A stretch of 64,000 nt of DNA from Streptomyces sp. Lineage in GTDB: Bacteria > Actinomycetota > Actinomycetes > Streptomycetales > Streptomycetaceae. Where the stretch lies: contig JABFVM010000198.1 of the NCBI GenBank assembly GCA_013362785.1, positions 1 to 64,000 on the forward strand. The letters are read 5' to 3'. Made by a program: the position numbers and the translations under genes. The notes beneath the pieces were generated by a model, which ran no database searches, was not told the origin of the DNA, and worked only from the letters and a program-made list of their open reading frames with translations. Shown piece after piece: positions 22,899 to 29,218 of the stretch (its first letter is position 1; the number at the start of each line of letters is the position of its first letter).

Positions 22899-23867
22899 TC
22901 ATTTGCGGCGCCTCGTCGTCTGGTCCCGCCAGTAGCGGAAGGTGCGTTCCGGTGCGGGCAGCAGGTCCCACGGGTGGGCGGTCATATGGCGGCCGATGCG
23001 CCGGAAGACGAGGGCCGCCTCGTCCGGGCGGTGGGCGCGGGTCAGGGCGAAGGCGAGGACGTTGAGGTCGACGACGGCTTCGGCGTGGGGCGCGGCGGCG
23101 GCGTGGAACCATCGGGACAGGGCCGTGTCGAGCTCCTGCACCGATCTGGGTTCGCTCCAGTGGGCGTTCTCACCGAGCCCGTCGAGCGCCGACTGCTCCG
23201 TGCGCTCCGACCGCGCCTGGCGGTGGGCGGCGAGTTCCACCCGGGCCGTCACCGGCAGCAGGGCGACCGGGGAGCCGTGCGGTGCCTGGAAGGCGGCCTG
23301 CCAGGCGAAGTCCATCATGTCGGGGACCGTGCCCCGGCCGCGCGGGGACAGGTACCGCAGCATCAGGTGGTAGGCCGTCCGATGCCAGGGCGCGCGGGTC
23401 ACGGCCTGGGTCCACACCGGCACCGCGTCCTGCACCGGCATCGCGCAGGAGTGCATCAGGGTCAGCAGCGCCAGCCAGGGCGTCGGGTCCTCCGGGCAGG
23501 CCGCGGCGGCGTCCAGGCACGTCTGCTCGGCCCGGCGGACCGCGGAGTGCCCCTCGGCGGAGGCGCGGCCCGACTGGACGAAGGCCCGTAGGACCAGGGC
23601 GTCACCGTCGCCGGGCCGGTCAGCGGTCCATCGCTCGGAGACCACGGCGGGCAGGCCCTGGGCGAGGACGGAGACACGGTGGGCTCGGCGGTCCCAGTCG
23701 CGTCCGGTGGCGTGCAGCAGTTCGGCCACGGGTTCCCATGCGGGGCTTGTGCGGTCGACTCCGAGGCCGTGGAGCTGTTGGGTTGGACGGAGTTCGAGCA
23801 GGGTCCTGTGCAGGGGGTCGTCGTCCAGTTCCGGGCGGATCAGGAGGGATCGTGGGCGCCTCAGCAT
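22899..23867 (-). CDS. conserved protein of unknown function (helical-repeat-like)
   Basis: A 322-residue soluble protein, mostly helical, rich in Ala, Arg, His and Trp. Segments such as DPTPWLALLTLMHSCAMPVQ, TRAPWHRTAYHLMLRYLSPR and TRAHRPDEAALVFRRIGRHM resemble TPR-type helix pairs, but I assign no family. It has no signal peptide or membrane span. It lies downstream of the cstA-ybdD operon in the same direction, separated by a strong hairpin, so it probably has its own promoter. Confidence 0.65.
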   Translation of the reverse strand: MLRRPRSLLIRPELDDDPLHRTLLELRPTQQLHGLGVDRTSPAWEPVAELLHATGRDWDRRAHRVSVLAQGLPAVVSERWTADRPGDGDALVLRAFVQSGRASAEGHSAVRRAEQTCLDAAAACPEDPTPWLALLTLMHSCAMPVQDAVPVWTQAVTRAPWHRTAYHLMLRYLSPRGRGTVPDMMDFAWQAAFQAPHGSPVALLPVTARVELAAHRQARSERTEQSALDGLGENAHWSEPRSVQELDTALSRWFHAAAAPHAEAVVDLNVLAFALTRAHRPDEAALVFRRIGRHMTAHPWDLLPAPERTFRYWRDQTTRRRK

Positions 23868-23900: not shown

Positions 23901-23990
23901 TGTGGGCGGCTGCAGGTAGTCGGTGGCTGGTCGCGCAGTTCCCCGCGCCCCTTGAGGTACGTCCAGTGCACGTACTCAAGAGGCGCGGGG
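23901..23990 (-). repeat. dispersed repeat family A copy 3 with a 50-bp hairpin
   Basis: GGTCGCGCAGTTCCCCGCGC matches the copy at 9.25 kb. The last 50 bases (23941-23990) are almost fully self-complementary: CCCCGCGCC and GGCGCGGGG, then CTTGAG and CTCAAG, then TACGT and ACGTA, with small bulges around CCAGTGC. It stands 19 bases after the ybdD stop and should terminate that operon. Confidence 0.75.
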
Positions 23991-24008: not shown

Positions 24009-24197
24009 TCAGCAGCAGCGGCTCTGCGGGTGCTCCTCCCGGTGCAGGGTCCGCAGTACGTCGTACTCCCGCCGGGTCGGGAGCGGGGCGTGCGGGTGGT
24101 GACGGCGGTGGCGTTCGCAGTAACGGTCGTACTCGGCCTCACCGGTCAGCTCCCGCAGATACCAGCGCACTGCCCCGGCCCACCGTCGGACATTCAC
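24009..24197 (-). CDS. YbdD/YjiX-family small protein, CstA partner
   Basis: A 62-residue protein of the YbdD/YjiX (DUF466) family: WAGAVRWYLRELTGEAEYDRY is the conserved N-terminal half, and HAPLPTRREYDVLRTLHREE the C-terminal half. These proteins always follow cstA-type genes and are needed for peptide or pyruvate uptake in enterobacteria. Its start overlaps the cstA stop by ATGA, so translation is coupled. The Cys-Cys end is unusual. Confidence 0.88.
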   Translation of the reverse strand: MNVRRWAGAVRWYLRELTGEAEYDRYCERHRRHHPHAPLPTRREYDVLRTLHREEHPQSRCC

Positions 24198-26347
24198 GAC
24201 CGGACGCCCACGAGCGGCTCACCGGACTGCTCGGGCACCTCGATACGGGACTCGACGTACGGTGCCTCGGTCGTCGCCAGCGGGTGACGCGCACGGACGG
24301 CGCGGACGCACACCACCGCGCAGTTGACCAGGACCGTGAGGACCAGCAGGAGGAAGACGGCCATGAGCACACCGTCGACCGTGTTGTTGAGGACGATGGT
24401 GTGCATGTCGTCCATGTCCGTGGCGCCCGGCAGCAGCTGACCGTCCTCGATGGCCCGCGCGTACTTGTCCCGCAGGGCGAAGAAGCCGATCGCGGGGTTG
24501 TCGGAGAAGATCTTCTGCCAGCCGGCGGTGAAGGTGACGGCCACGTCCCAGGCCAGCGGGATGCCGGTGACCCAGGCCCAGCGCAGCTTGCCGGACTTGA
24601 TCAGCACGGTGGTGGTGACGGCCAGGGCCACCGCGGCCAGCAGCTGGTTGGCGATGCCGAACAGCGGGAAGAGCTGCTTGATGCCGCCGAGCGGGTCGGT
24701 GACACCGGCGTAGAGGAAGTAGCCCCAGGCGCCGACGACCAGGGCGCTGGTGATCCAGATGCCGGGCTTCCAGGTGACCCGGCCGATCGGCTTCCAGACG
24801 TTGCCGAGCATGTCCTGGAGCATGAAGCGGCCGACGCGGGTGCCGGCATCCACCGTGGTGAGGATGAACAGCGCCTCGAACATGATCGCGAAGTGGTACC
24901 AGAAGGCCTTCATCCCGGCGCCGCCGATCACCCCGGCGAAGATCTCCGACATGCCCACGGCGAGGGTGGGCGCGCCGCCCGAGCGGCCGATCAGGGTCTC
25001 CTCCTCGACCGCCCGGGCCGCGTCCGTCAGCTGGTCCGGGGTGATGGTGAAGCCGAGGTTCTTCACCGCCTCGGCCGCGGTGTCCACGGTCGGGCCGAGC
25101 AGCGCGGCCGGGGCGTTCATGGCGTAGAACAGGCCGGGTTCGAGCACACAGGCGGCGATCAGCGCCATGACGGCGACGAAGGACTCGGTGAGCATGGAGC
25201 CGTAGCCGATCAGCCGGACCTGGGACTCCTTCTCGATCAGTTTCGGCGTGGTGCCGGAGGAGACCAGGGCGTGGAAGCCGGACAGGGCGCCGCAGGCGAT
25301 GGTGATGAACAGGAAGGGGAAGAGGGAACCGGCGAACACCGGTCCGGCGCCGGTCGAGGCGAACTCCGTCACCGGCTCGGTCCTCAGGTTCGGGGCGGCG
25401 ATCAGCACGCCGACGGCCATCAGGGCGATGGTGCCGACCTTCATGAAGGTGGAGAGGTAGTCGCGGGGCGCCAGCAGCATCCACACCGGGAGTACCGAGG
25501 CGACGAAGCCGTAGCCGACCAGGCAGAAGACGAGGGTCTCGGGGCTCCAGACGAAGTACTCGGCGAGCGAGGAGTCCTGGATCCAGCCGCCGCCGAGGAT
25601 GGCGAGCAGCAGCAGGGCCACACCGATGAAGCTGGTCTCCACGACCCGGCCGGGCCGCAGATAGCGCAGGTAGAAGCCCATGAAGAGGGCGATCGGGATG
25701 GTCATGGAGACCGAGAAGGTGCCCCAGGCCGACTCCGCCAGCGCGTTGACGACGACCATCGCGAGGACCGCGAGCAGGATGATCATGATGGCGAAGACGC
25801 CGATCAGCGCGGCGGCGCCGCCCACCTTGCCGATCTCGTCCCGGGCCATCTGGCCGAGGCTCTTGCCGTCCCGGCGCATGGAGAGGAACAGGACGATCAT
25901 GTCCTGCACCGCGCCGGCGAAGATCACGCCCGCGATGATCCAGATCGTGCCCGGCAGATAGCCCATCTGTGCGGCCAGGACCGGGCCCACCAGCGGACCG
26001 GCGCCGGCGATCGCCGCGAAGTGGTGGCCGAACAGCACCCGCTTGTCGGTGGGGTGGTAGTCGACACCGTCCTCAAGGCGTTCGGCCGGGGTGGCGCGGG
26101 TGTCGTCGACCTGGAGGACCTTCCGGGCGATGAACCGGGAGTAGAAGCGGTAGGCGATCGCGTACGAGCCGAGGGCCGCCACGACCAGCCAGACGGCCGA
26201 GATCTCCTCGCCCCGCGACAGGGCGAGCACGGCCCAGCCGAGAGCGCCTGCGAGGGCGACGGCGCTCCAGATCGCGACGGACTTCGGCGACATTCGTGAC
26301 TTTTCCGGCGCTGGACGACCGGATTCGGGCATGGCTGATACGGGCAT
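24194..26347 (-). CDS. cstA: CstA-type carbon-starvation / pyruvate transporter
   Basis: A 717-residue membrane protein with about 16-18 helices. Family marks include the DGVDYHPTDKRVLFGHHFAAIAG region, the GPLVGPVLAAQMGYLPG stretch and SGTTPKLIEKESQ. CstA/BtsT proteins import pyruvate or peptides during carbon limitation. The ATG is well placed behind CAGGAG. It sits in a three-gene unit: DUF3311, cstA, ybdD. The divergent symporter next door is also a candidate carboxylate carrier, so the whole locus may handle small organic acids. Confidence 0.95.
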   Translation of the reverse strand: MPVSAMPESGRPAPEKSRMSPKSVAIWSAVALAGALGWAVLALSRGEEISAVWLVVAALGSYAIAYRFYSRFIARKVLQVDDTRATPAERLEDGVDYHPTDKRVLFGHHFAAIAGAGPLVGPVLAAQMGYLPGTIWIIAGVIFAGAVQDMIVLFLSMRRDGKSLGQMARDEIGKVGGAAALIGVFAIMIILLAVLAMVVVNALAESAWGTFSVSMTIPIALFMGFYLRYLRPGRVVETSFIGVALLLLAILGGGWIQDSSLAEYFVWSPETLVFCLVGYGFVASVLPVWMLLAPRDYLSTFMKVGTIALMAVGVLIAAPNLRTEPVTEFASTGAGPVFAGSLFPFLFITIACGALSGFHALVSSGTTPKLIEKESQVRLIGYGSMLTESFVAVMALIAACVLEPGLFYAMNAPAALLGPTVDTAAEAVKNLGFTITPDQLTDAARAVEEETLIGRSGGAPTLAVGMSEIFAGVIGGAGMKAFWYHFAIMFEALFILTTVDAGTRVGRFMLQDMLGNVWKPIGRVTWKPGIWITSALVVGAWGYFLYAGVTDPLGGIKQLFPLFGIANQLLAAVALAVTTTVLIKSGKLRWAWVTGIPLAWDVAVTFTAGWQKIFSDNPAIGFFALRDKYARAIEDGQLLPGATDMDDMHTIVLNNTVDGVLMAVFLLLVLTVLVNCAVVCVRAVRARHPLATTEAPYVESRIEVPEQSGEPLVGVRS

Positions 26348-26398: not shown

Positions 26399-26635
26399 TC
26401 AGTGCTGTCGATGTCGGTGTCGACGTCTGCTTCGGTCCGTCAGCGCGTACGCGGCGAGCAGGCAGAGGCCGCACCCCGGCACCCAGGCGAGCTGGTACCA
26501 GTAGAAGAACGGCGTCCCGGCCAGCCGCGGCTCGGCACCGGCGTACCAGGGGACCCACAGCAGTCCTGCCGCGGGCGCGAGAAGCAGTACGGCGATGGCG
26601 ACGCGCCGTAGCCGGTGATGACCGGTCCGTGCCAT
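26399..26635 (-). CDS. DUF3311-type small membrane protein
   Basis: A 78-residue protein with two membrane helices (VAIAVLLLAPAAGLLWVPWY and FYWYQLAWVPGCGLCLLAAYAL). The LLLAP-x-LLWVP and FFYWYQL-W patterns match DUF3311, which usually stands next to sodium/solute symporters. Here it heads the cstA-ybdD unit, while the symporter gene is divergent 167 bases away. The ATG follows GGAGCGCAGGTC. The tail is rich in Arg and His. Confidence 0.8.
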   Translation of the reverse strand: MARTGHHRLRRVAIAVLLLAPAAGLLWVPWYAGAEPRLAGTPFFYWYQLAWVPGCGLCLLAAYALTDRSRRRHRHRQH

Positions 26636-26671
26636 GACCTGCGCTCCTCTCCCGCTCGCTGTCGGTCTGTG

Positions 26672-26772
26672 CAAGAGTTGCCCACCGCCCGGAACAGGTT
26701 GACAGCGAATTTCCGGGAAATTTCCCGCCGGTCCCTGTCCTCCGTCCGGGTCGTCCGCGCAACTCTCGCGCA
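26672..26772. promoter_or_regulatory. symmetrical divergent control region
   Basis: GCAACTCT-x-GC-x-C occurs twice in mirror orientation, at 26670-26681 and 26759-26771. The copies stand about 38 bases from the starts of the two divergent genes. Between them is CGGGAAATTTCCCG (26714-26727), a perfect 14-base palindrome with an AT core. The pattern suggests one regulator or promoter type serving both operons. Confidence 0.5.
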
Positions 26773-26802
26773 AGGGCACAGGCACACCAAGGACGGTGAC
26801 CC

Positions 26803-28341
26803 ATGGCCGACGGCGCCATGACCGCGACGTTTCTCGCCGTGATCGGCGGGGCGTCGCTGCTCGCCGTCACGGCGCGGCGGCTGCGCCCCAGCGACCGGCT
26901 CCCGGCGCTGGAGGGCTGGGCGCTGGCCGACCGCAGCCTCGGCCCGGTGTGGACGTGGCTGCTGCTGGGCGGCACGATCTTCACCGCGTACACCTTCGCC
27001 GCCGTACCGGGCCTGGCGTACGGCAATGGGGCGCCCGCCTTCTTCGCGGTGCCGTACACGGTGATCGTCTGCCCGTTGGCCTTCGTGCTGCTGACCCGGC
27101 TGTGGACCGTGGCCCGTCGGCACGGCTATGTCACGGCGGCCGACTTCGTGCGCGGCCGGTACGGCTCGCCGCCGCTGGCCCTGGTGGTCGCGCTGACCGG
27201 GATCCTCGCGACGATGCCGTATCTCGCGCTGCAACTGCTCGGGATACGGGCGGTCCTGACGGCCGGCGGGGTGTATCCGCGCGGGGCGGCCGGTGATCTG
27301 GTGATGGTGGCGCTGTTCGCGGGGCTGGCCGTCGCCACCTACCGGCACGGGCTGCGCGCCCCCACCGTGATCTCGGCGCTCAAGGCCGTGGCCGTCTTCG
27401 TGTCACTGACCGCGGTGACCTGGCTGGTCCTCGCCCGGGTGGGCGGCCCGGGTGCCGTCTTCGACGGTGCGGCCGAGCGCCTCGGCGGCCCGGCGCTGCT
27501 CCTCACCCCCGAGCAGCAGCCCGCCTACGCCACCCTCGCCCTCGGCTCCGCGCTCGCCCTGCTGATGTACCCGCATGTGCTGACCGCCGGTTTCGCCGCC
27601 GACGGCCCCCGCACCCTGCGCAAGGCTGCCGTGGCGCTGCCCGCCTGGACCGGGCTGCTCGCCCTCTTCGGCTTCCTCGGCATCGCGGCGCTCGCGACGG
27701 GCGTGCGCGCTCCGGCGGGCGGCGCCGAGGCGGCCGTACCGATGCTGGTGGACCGGCTGATGCCGGCGCCGCTGGCCGGGCTGGTGTTCGGGGCGATCAC
27801 CGTGGGGGCGCTGGTCCCGGCGGCGGTGATGTCGATCGCGGCGGCCACCAGCTTCGTACGCAATGTGTATGTGGAGTACGTCCATCCGACGGCCACGCCC
27901 AAGCGGCAGGTGCGCATCGCCAAGGCGGTGTCGCTCACCGCGAAGGTGGGCGCGGTGGCGTTCGTGTTCGGGCTGCGCGACCAGGACGCCATCAACCTCC
28001 AGCTGCTCGGCGGGGTCTGGATCCTGCAGATCTTCCCGGCGGTCGCGGTGGGGCTGTTCACCGGGCGGCTGCATCCGCGGGCGCTGCTCGCCGGGTGGGC
28101 CGTGGGCATGGTCGCCGGGACCTGGATGGTCGTACGGGAGGGCTTCTCGTCGATCGTGGCGCTCGGCTCCGGACCGGAGATCTACGCCGGGCTCGCCGCC
28201 CTGCTGCTCAACCTGCTCGTCGCCGTGGCCGGGACCGCGGTACTCGAACGTCTGGGCGTCCCGCGCGGCGCCGATCTGACCGACCTGCCGGCGCGCCTGA
28301 GCGTCAGGCGGCGCCCCGAGACGGGAGCGAACAACCCGTGA
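26803..28341 (+). CDS. sodium:solute symporter family permease
   Basis: A 512-residue, roughly 13-helix SSS-family permease. Marks include GWALADRSLGPVWTWLLLGG, where ADRSLG replaces the usual GRSL region, then FTAYTFAAVPGLAYGNGAPA and the Na+-site-like segment VPAAVMSIAAATSFVRNVYVEY. It is most similar in layout to monocarboxylate/YhjB-type members that pair with DUF3311 proteins. The substrate is unknown. The ATG follows AAGGACGGTG. Its stop overlaps the sigma-factor start (GTGA), an unusual arrangement. Confidence 0.88.
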   Translation: MADGAMTATFLAVIGGASLLAVTARRLRPSDRLPALEGWALADRSLGPVWTWLLLGGTIFTAYTFAAVPGLAYGNGAPAFFAVPYTVIVCPLAFVLLTRLWTVARRHGYVTAADFVRGRYGSPPLALVVALTGILATMPYLALQLLGIRAVLTAGGVYPRGAAGDLVMVALFAGLAVATYRHGLRAPTVISALKAVAVFVSLTAVTWLVLARVGGPGAVFDGAAERLGGPALLLTPEQQPAYATLALGSALALLMYPHVLTAGFAADGPRTLRKAAVALPAWTGLLALFGFLGIAALATGVRAPAGGAEAAVPMLVDRLMPAPLAGLVFGAITVGALVPAAVMSIAAATSFVRNVYVEYVHPTATPKRQVRIAKAVSLTAKVGAVAFVFGLRDQDAINLQLLGGVWILQIFPAVAVGLFTGRLHPRALLAGWAVGMVAGTWMVVREGFSSIVALGSGPEIYAGLAALLLNLLVAVAGTAVLERLGVPRGADLTDLPARLSVRRRPETGANNP

Positions 28342-28910
28342 GACAGCACCTGAGACCCGAGGGCGCCGGCAGCCCCGTACCGGCCGTGCCGCTCGCCCCC
28401 GCGGTGAGCGACCCGGCGGACCTGGAGCGCGAGGCCGGTCTGGCCCGCCTGTTCGAGCTGAACTACGCGTCGATGCTGCGCCTCGCCGTCCTGCTCGGCG
28501 CCGACGACCCGGAGAACGTCGTCGCGGAGGCCTACTACCAGATCTACCGGAAGTGGCGGCGCCTGCGGGACACCGAGGCGGCGGAGGCGTATCTGCGCTC
28601 CACGGTGTGCAATCTGACGCGGATGCGGATACGGCATCTCCAAGTGGCCCGCAAGCATGTGGAGAAGCCGGCCGACGAGCTCGTCGCCTCGGCCGAGAGC
28701 ACCGCGCTGCTGCGGGACGACCAGCGCGTCCTGATCGACTCGCTGCAGCAGCTGCCGGCCCGCCAGCGCGAGGCGCTGGTGCTGCGGCACTGGCTCGGAC
28801 TGAAGGAGAGCGAGATCGCCGCGGCGATGGGGATCTCCTGTGGTTCCGTCAAGACCCATACGGCGCGCGGCCTCGCCGCCCTGACCCAGGCGATGGAGGC
28901 CCGGCGATGA
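28338..28910 (+). CDS. SigE-family ECF RNA polymerase sigma factor
   Basis: A 190-residue ECF sigma factor of the actinobacterial SigE branch. Region 2 is about 37-100 (FELNYASMLRLAVLLGADD, AYYQIYRKWRRLRD) and region 4 is 125-185, with LPARQREALVLRHWLGLKES and SCGSVKTHTARGLAAL forming the -35-recognition HTH. The GTG start overlaps the symporter stop and the gene end overlaps the next start, so three proteins are made from one coupled unit. Its target promoters are unknown; the divergent region upstream of the symporter is the first place to look. Confidence 0.9.
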   Translation: MRQHLRPEGAGSPVPAVPLAPAVSDPADLEREAGLARLFELNYASMLRLAVLLGADDPENVVAEAYYQIYRKWRRLRDTEAAEAYLRSTVCNLTRMRIRHLQVARKHVEKPADELVASAESTALLRDDQRVLIDSLQQLPARQREALVLRHWLGLKESEIAAAMGISCGSVKTHTARGLAALTQAMEARR

Positions 28911-29218
28911 CGCATCGAGACGCGACCGGGGCACGTGGCACCGGTCCGGACCGCACCGAGCGGGAGCTGCGGGAGGCGCTGGCCGCGCTCGCCGACGGGG
29001 TGCGGACCCCGCCCGACGCCTATCGCACGGCGCGCGGCGAGTGGCTGCGCCGGGAACGCCGGCGCCGGCTGGTGCTCGCCGTCCTGATCGCGGTCGTGTT
29101 CGCCCTCGCCACCTTGATCGGCCTGTGGGTCCTCAACCAGGCCCCGACGGACCCCGGCGTCATCTTCTCCGGCACCGGATCCACCGCCGCCCTGCCGCTC
29201 CCCCGCTCCCTGCCCTGA
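28907..29218 (+). CDS. small membrane protein, possible anti-sigma factor
   Basis: The protein has 103 residues: about 60 charged cytoplasmic ones (ERELREALAALADGVRTPPD, WLRRERRRR), then one membrane helix (LVLAVLIAVVFALATLIGLWVL) and a short outside tail. The size, topology and ATGA coupling to the ECF gene suggest an anti-sigma or accessory regulator. No zinc HxxxCxxC motif is present, and the similarity is to position and layout, not to a named family. Confidence 0.65.
   Translation: MTHRDATGARGTGPDRTERELREALAALADGVRTPPDAYRTARGEWLRRERRRRLVLAVLIAVVFALATLIGLWVLNQAPTDPGVIFSGTGSTAALPLPRSLP

Follow-up and report, generated by a model that had tools for sequence, protein, structure and literature searches.

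A predicted ECF sigma factor promoter pair between MctP-type and CstA-type carrier operons of Streptomyces

Locus and encoded proteins

Two transporter operons diverge from a short intergenic region in a 64,000-base stretch of a Streptomyces sp. genome (contig JABFVM010000198.1; the window), and one of them encodes a sigma factor. The DUF3311 ATG (26635, minus strand) and the ATG of an MctP-like symporter (26803, plus strand) are separated by 167 bases. The leftward gene order is DUF3311, cstA, ybdD and a gene for a 322-aa protein; rightward, mctP is followed by the ECF sigma factor and a 103-aa single-span membrane protein.

22899 to 23867, minus strand: 322-aa protein encoded after ybdD; its detached homologues (G109, G176) have an element copy of their own
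24009 to 24197, minus strand: YbdD-like small protein (Sel_put; PF04328, 68.4 bits)
24194 to 26347, minus strand: CstA-family transporter (PF02554, 875.7 bits)
26399 to 26635, minus strand: DUF3311 small membrane protein (PF11755, 53.8 bits, cut-off 30)
26803 to 28341, plus strand: MctP-like sodium/solute symporter (NF046076, 484.8 bits, below the cut-off of 625)
28338 to 28910, plus strand: ECF sigma factor (sigma70-ECF, TIGR02937, 56.3 bits, cut-off 42.9); the GTG start, which was checked, overlaps the mctP stop
28907 to 29218, plus strand: 103-aa single-span membrane protein, candidate anti-sigma factor, overlapping the sigma stop

The assignment of the sigma factor is supported by Pfam region 4 models above cut-off, with region 4 ending about 8 residues before the C-terminus, and by ECF sigma factors in the PDB (E to 4e-6, residues 54-187). 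A Pfam region 2 match was not found at E 0.001. The best-scoring model was SigE-fam_strep (TIGR02983) with 122.2 bits, under the curated cut-off of 141.55 and obtained with a query carrying 20 extra N-terminal residues. The 103-aa membrane protein matched no Pfam or NCBIfam family. It follows the sigma gene in 79 of 80 related loci, and in the 80th the contig ends first. Position and shape make it a candidate anti-sigma factor. No sigma-70-type promoters or terminators were detected in 26400-27100. A long G+C-rich inverted repeat, seen by eye at 23941-23990 (minus strand) between ybdD and the 322-aa gene, is possibly a terminator.

A bipartite element facing both ways

The initial annotation had pointed to a motif occurring once per strand at nearly the same distance, about 38 bases, from both gene starts. 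This was borne out: the minus strand carries GCAACTCT-T-GC-A-C (26681-26669) and the plus strand GCAACTCT-C-GC-G-C (26759-26771). Counted from the end of GCAACTCT, the DUF3311 ATG is reached after 38 bases and the symporter ATG after 36. The outward-reading 11-mers are GCAACTCTTGC (26681-26671, minus) and GCAACTCTCGC (26759-26769, plus). Both matches of GCAACTCTYGC in the 8,017,133-base assembly are in this intergenic region; the reversed control pattern had 4. Although the 11-mer GCAACTCTNGC alone is widespread (198 of 199 genomes), GCAAGAGTTGC-N65-90-GCAACTCTNGC as a facing pair occurs in 7 of the family's 394 genomes, with 0 for the reversed control. Judged by the sequences listed, all 7 lie at this type of locus. 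The facing motif pair is more than chance.

When mctP upstream regions of 80 named, related Streptomyces loci were compared (81 sequences with the window added), GCAAC turned out to form the downstream part of TGTCNNCC-N15-GCAAC, a bipartite element that faces both ways. Comparison places the following putative elements in the window:

26664 to 26681, minus strand: -10 box GCAACT with conserved extension CTTGCACAGACC, leftward promoter
26697 to 26704, minus strand: -35 box TGTCAACC, leftward (DUF3311-cstA) promoter
26709 to 26725, minus strand: direct repeat GGAAAT-N5-GGAAAT (units 26725-26720 and 26714-26709), upstream of the leftward -35 box
26736 to 26743, plus strand: -35 box TGTCCTCC, rightward (mctP-sigma) promoter
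26759 to 26764, plus strand: -10 box GCAACT, rightward promoter

The spacing is nearly invariant. A pattern free in spacing matched 75 of 81 sequences rightward; the spacer was 15 bp in 74 of them and 14 bp in L076. Leftward it matched 70 of 81, all with 15 bp. With anchors at 15 bp and a looser -10 box, the element was present in 76/80 loci rightward (exceptions L069, L075, L076 and L077) and in 69/80 leftward. Including L076 at 14 bp, it precedes the sigma operon in 77/80 loci. The pair of predicted promoters is conserved in many Streptomyces species. Conservation of the anchor columns follows from the selection of matches; the CC columns at -17/-16 were unselected and are 97-100% conserved on both sides. 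The rightward upstream box is mostly TGTCCTCC or TGTCATCC. Across 69 unique leftward sequences, conservation of the extension CTTGCACAGACC after the -10 box is 94-100%. This near-invariant stretch (26664-26675, minus strand) exceeds the needs of a -10 box, and promoters of relocated genes described below share a part of it (CAGACC).

The GGAAAT repeat is conserved upstream of the cstA-side promoter, with two units 11 bp apart and A and T letters at 80-97% per column. It is possibly an UP-like or activator element. Among the 81 sequences, 26 bp (n=3), 30-33 bp (n=58), 41-42 bp (n=10) or 77 bp (n=1) separate the two -35 boxes, with the remaining 9 unmeasured. These lengths hint at 10-11-bp duplications. 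The intergenic centres of L063, L013-L015, L048 and L065 contain the GATTTCC/GGAAAT unit at least 3 times at about 10-11 bp, and extra units stretch the gap to 41-42 or 77 bp. In L040, the rightward -35 box is apparently duplicated in tandem 10 bp upstream (CTGTCCTCCT-CTGTCCTCC), and the downstream copy retains the 15-bp spacing; the duplication is less exact in L028, L032 and L046.

A loose TGTCNNCC-N15-GCAAC pattern gave 77 matches in 12 genomes versus 29 for the reversed control. The facing pair is located at the mctP/cstA locus in 10 of the 12; in the other two, G556 and G561, the rightward -35 box contains CGTC. A wider regulon drawn from this pattern was rejected. The 18 single sites whose loci were inspected overlap long open frames. 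A palindromic operator GCAA-CTC-TTGC was also discarded because many rightward copies retain GCAAC alone (GCAACTTA, GCAACCAA, GCAACTAC).

Co-occurrence with the sigma factor and cstA

Among 199 Streptomyces genomes, the strict element was present in 29 of 37 with the sigma factor (match with E up to 1e-40) versus 2 of 162 without it (G050 and G113). The association has a Fisher value of 2.7e-25 with kinship between genomes uncorrected; loci and genomes are related, and the counts are not independent events. The leftward element follows cstA. Where cstA is adjacent (alignment over 300 aa), the element was found in 68/68 loci; among loci without adjacent cstA it was found in 1/12 (L076). None of the 11/80 loci lacking it has an adjacent full cstA; L079 retains a 70-aa piece, and the left flank covered was 3.9 kb in L056, 3.6 kb in L071 and 1.8 kb in L075. 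The target seems to be cstA rather than DUF3311, because a DUF3311 match is missing in 14 of the 68 loci with leftward element and adjacent cstA.

Relocated genes have the element, too. TGTCAACC-N15-GCAAC precedes relocated CstA-family genes in L058, L061, L068, L076, L168, L183 and L184, several of which are closely related loci. The genes are 30-35% identical over the aligned part. The element is about 0.3-0.4 kb ahead, and the long leader of this size that the transcripts would have counts against a promoter. Upstream of 6 of these 7 genes, all except that of L076, GGAAATCTCC occurs in the same register. A strict element also precedes homologues (56% and 59%) of the window gene at 22899-23867 in G109 (5195748) and G176 (C40:17210). 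All 13 genomes with the best homologues of this gene (at least 58%) are sigma-positive, and in 11 of them the homologue lies within about 4 kb of the locus of the element pair.

More distant loci were included. L161 belongs to another family and matches the locus in gene order, with 63% (sigma), 61% (mctP) and 72% (cstA) identity; it carries TGTCAACC-N15-GCAACT rightward and CGTAAACC-N15-GCAACTCT leftward. Two sigma paralogues, about 50% identical and from G123 and G048, are encoded at L187 and L188, where a mctP or cstA match is absent. Here, TGTAAACC-N14/15-GCAACCAAG is located about 240-265 bases upstream (L187, ~3605, minus; L188, ~3217, plus), facing away from the sigma gene, and the downstream box reads GCAACC. 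A relaxed pattern had 19 matches in 299,813 bases of sigma-type loci and 0 for the reversed control. In the same genome as the window, a paralogous one-direction cstA-ybdD-DUF3311-mctP operon (G000:C531, L170) had neither a sigma match nor the element in the stretch searched.

Several cases do not fit. The strict element is missing from eight of the 37 sigma-positive genomes (G002, G026, G072, G085, G117, G130, G131 and G191). Among these, G026 and G131 have CGTCATCC-N15-GCAAC ahead of mctP, in G117 GGTAAACC-N15-GCAACT faces cstA, and G085 and G072 have remote TAAACC-type sites only. The search gave nothing convincing in G002 and G191, and the element was not found in G130, though its sigma and mctP are closely related. 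L069, L075 and L077 have lost both copies and retain the sigma gene. In L173, L174, L175 and L176 (sigma 57-79%), the element faces cstA and a mctP-facing copy was not detected; autoregulation is therefore less widely supported than control of cstA. The flanks searched of 25 loci with remoter sigma homologues (L123-L147) and of nine loci of the same genome as the window (L148-L156) had no match.

Alternative readings and predicted regulation

The initial annotation had regarded GCAACTCT as a -35-type element. Such a reading, for example as a sigma-E type promoter with AAC at -35 and CGTC at a -10 nearer the start codon, is quite improbable. It has parallels in the same genus: several sigma-E promoters of S. 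coelicolor given in PMC6767563 have GCAACC or similar at -35, with GGCAACC for hrdD. In 58 of 76 loci, GCAAC precedes the mctP start codon by 43-45 bases, a position that would also suit a -35 box. However, this distance varies from 40 to 106 bases while the spacing to the upstream box is constant, and on both sides of the window the CGT-like box expected about 16 bp downstream (CGTC at 16-17 bp) is absent. Because the TGTCNNCC box sits at a conserved 15 bp upstream, the comparison assigns GCAAC to the -10 and not the -35 position, with TGTCNNCC as the predicted -35 box. The palindrome of the initial annotation is present, with CGGGAAATTTCCCG at 26714-26727 centred on 26720.5 and the motif dyad on 26720. 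A location at the centre of the promoter dyad would suit the operator of a repressor over both operons, yet this function is highly improbable. The palindrome is exact in 2/80 loci (L004 and L010) and so not conserved as an operator, and in 72/80 no perfect palindrome within the 170 bases upstream exceeds 10 bp. Perfect palindromes of at least 14 bp are not rare in the window, with 21 centres versus 9-15 in ten first-order Markov simulations. The conserved feature is the direct repeat of GGAAAT, which the palindrome overlaps.

The boxes could also be sites of another regulator, such as a response regulator on CAAC repeats 21 bp apart, which we consider unlikely. LytTR regulators bind CAAC repeats of this spacing for pyruvate carriers in enterobacteria. 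The leftward boxes (TGTCAACC, GCAACT) both contain CAAC, 21 bp apart, and MctP of Sinorhizobium is reported to be under two-component control through an imperfect direct repeat (PMC9100948). The CAAC repeat is not kept rightward, however, because the upstream box there is usually TGTCCTCC or TGTCATCC. The assembly of the window (79.9% complete) had 0 LytTR proteins, whereas the same search was positive in 5 of 14 control genomes. Moreover, the element tracks this sigma factor across genomes.

The reading as ECF promoters has to be compared with known systems. Early ECF hallmarks were AAC at -35 and CGT at -10, before the definition was narrowed to domain content (PMC8103513). Here, the -10 box is GCAAC, which counts against an ECF promoter, and AAC occurs in the -35 box leftward only. 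The S. coelicolor sigma-E regulon shares an ECF sigma factor of the same genus and AAC-containing boxes, but AAC is at -35 and CGTC at -10 in that regulon (PMC6767563), compared to GCAAC at the proposed -10 without a following CGTC. The ECF41 promoter tested in PMC3426412, TGTCACA-N16-CGTC, is similar in its TGTC-type -35 box and the 23-bp start-to-start spacing. ECF41 promoters also lie beside the sigma gene and have very few targets. ECF41 differs in CGTC rather than GCAAC at -10, in a long C-terminal extension that this sigma factor, ending shortly after region 4, lacks, and in its neighbours, which are carboxymuconolactone decarboxylases, oxidoreductases and epimerases instead of transporters (PMC3426412); the locus does not fall within ECF41. 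The same transporter families are regulated by RpuS/R (MctP in Sinorhizobium, PMC9100948) and CRP/Fis (cstA in E. coli, PMC7730263), a two-component system and global regulators, in contrast to the operon-encoded sigma factor proposed here.

The initial annotation had proposed a promoter element for the right-hand operon's ECF sigma factor, by which the operon would be autoregulated and cstA jointly controlled; the comparative evidence supports this proposal, autoregulation less widely than control of cstA. We give a probability of about 0.78 to the reading that this sigma factor drives its own mctP operon and DUF3311-cstA from back-to-back promoters, coupling both carriers. Two ECF-type promoters, with -35 TGTCNNCC, 15 bp and -10 GCAAC(T), would be recognised by the product of the second gene of the right-hand operon. 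The rightward promoter would drive mctP, sigma and membrane protein in a positive autoregulatory loop, and the leftward one DUF3311-cstA-ybdD. Once freed, probably from the co-encoded membrane protein, the sigma factor would induce both monocarboxylate/pyruvate-type carriers together. We infer the transcript starts, the substrate and the signal. A monocarboxylate or pyruvate substrate is suggested by the transporter families: CstA is described as a pyruvate transporter in E. coli (PMC7730263) and MctP as a pyruvate symporter in Sinorhizobium (PMC9100948). More speculatively, and with considerable doubt, symporter, single-span membrane protein and sigma factor may form a transporter-coupled switch, in which substrate at the MctP-like carrier releases the sigma factor to induce both carriers and a third protein via TGTMAACC-N15-GCAAC.

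In the literature searched, the promoter string and a sigma factor linked to CstA, DUF3311, the symporter or monocarboxylate are undescribed; the ECF re-classification tables, outside this search, may list the promoter. For a branch of Streptomyces ECF sigma factors that is uncharacterised so far, the analysis predicts a concrete promoter and a small regulon. The regulon would tie this branch to two monocarboxylate/pyruvate-type carriers, with promoter and signal directly testable. Natural variants, in which the element is lost with cstA or reappears ahead of relocated genes, serve as built-in controls.
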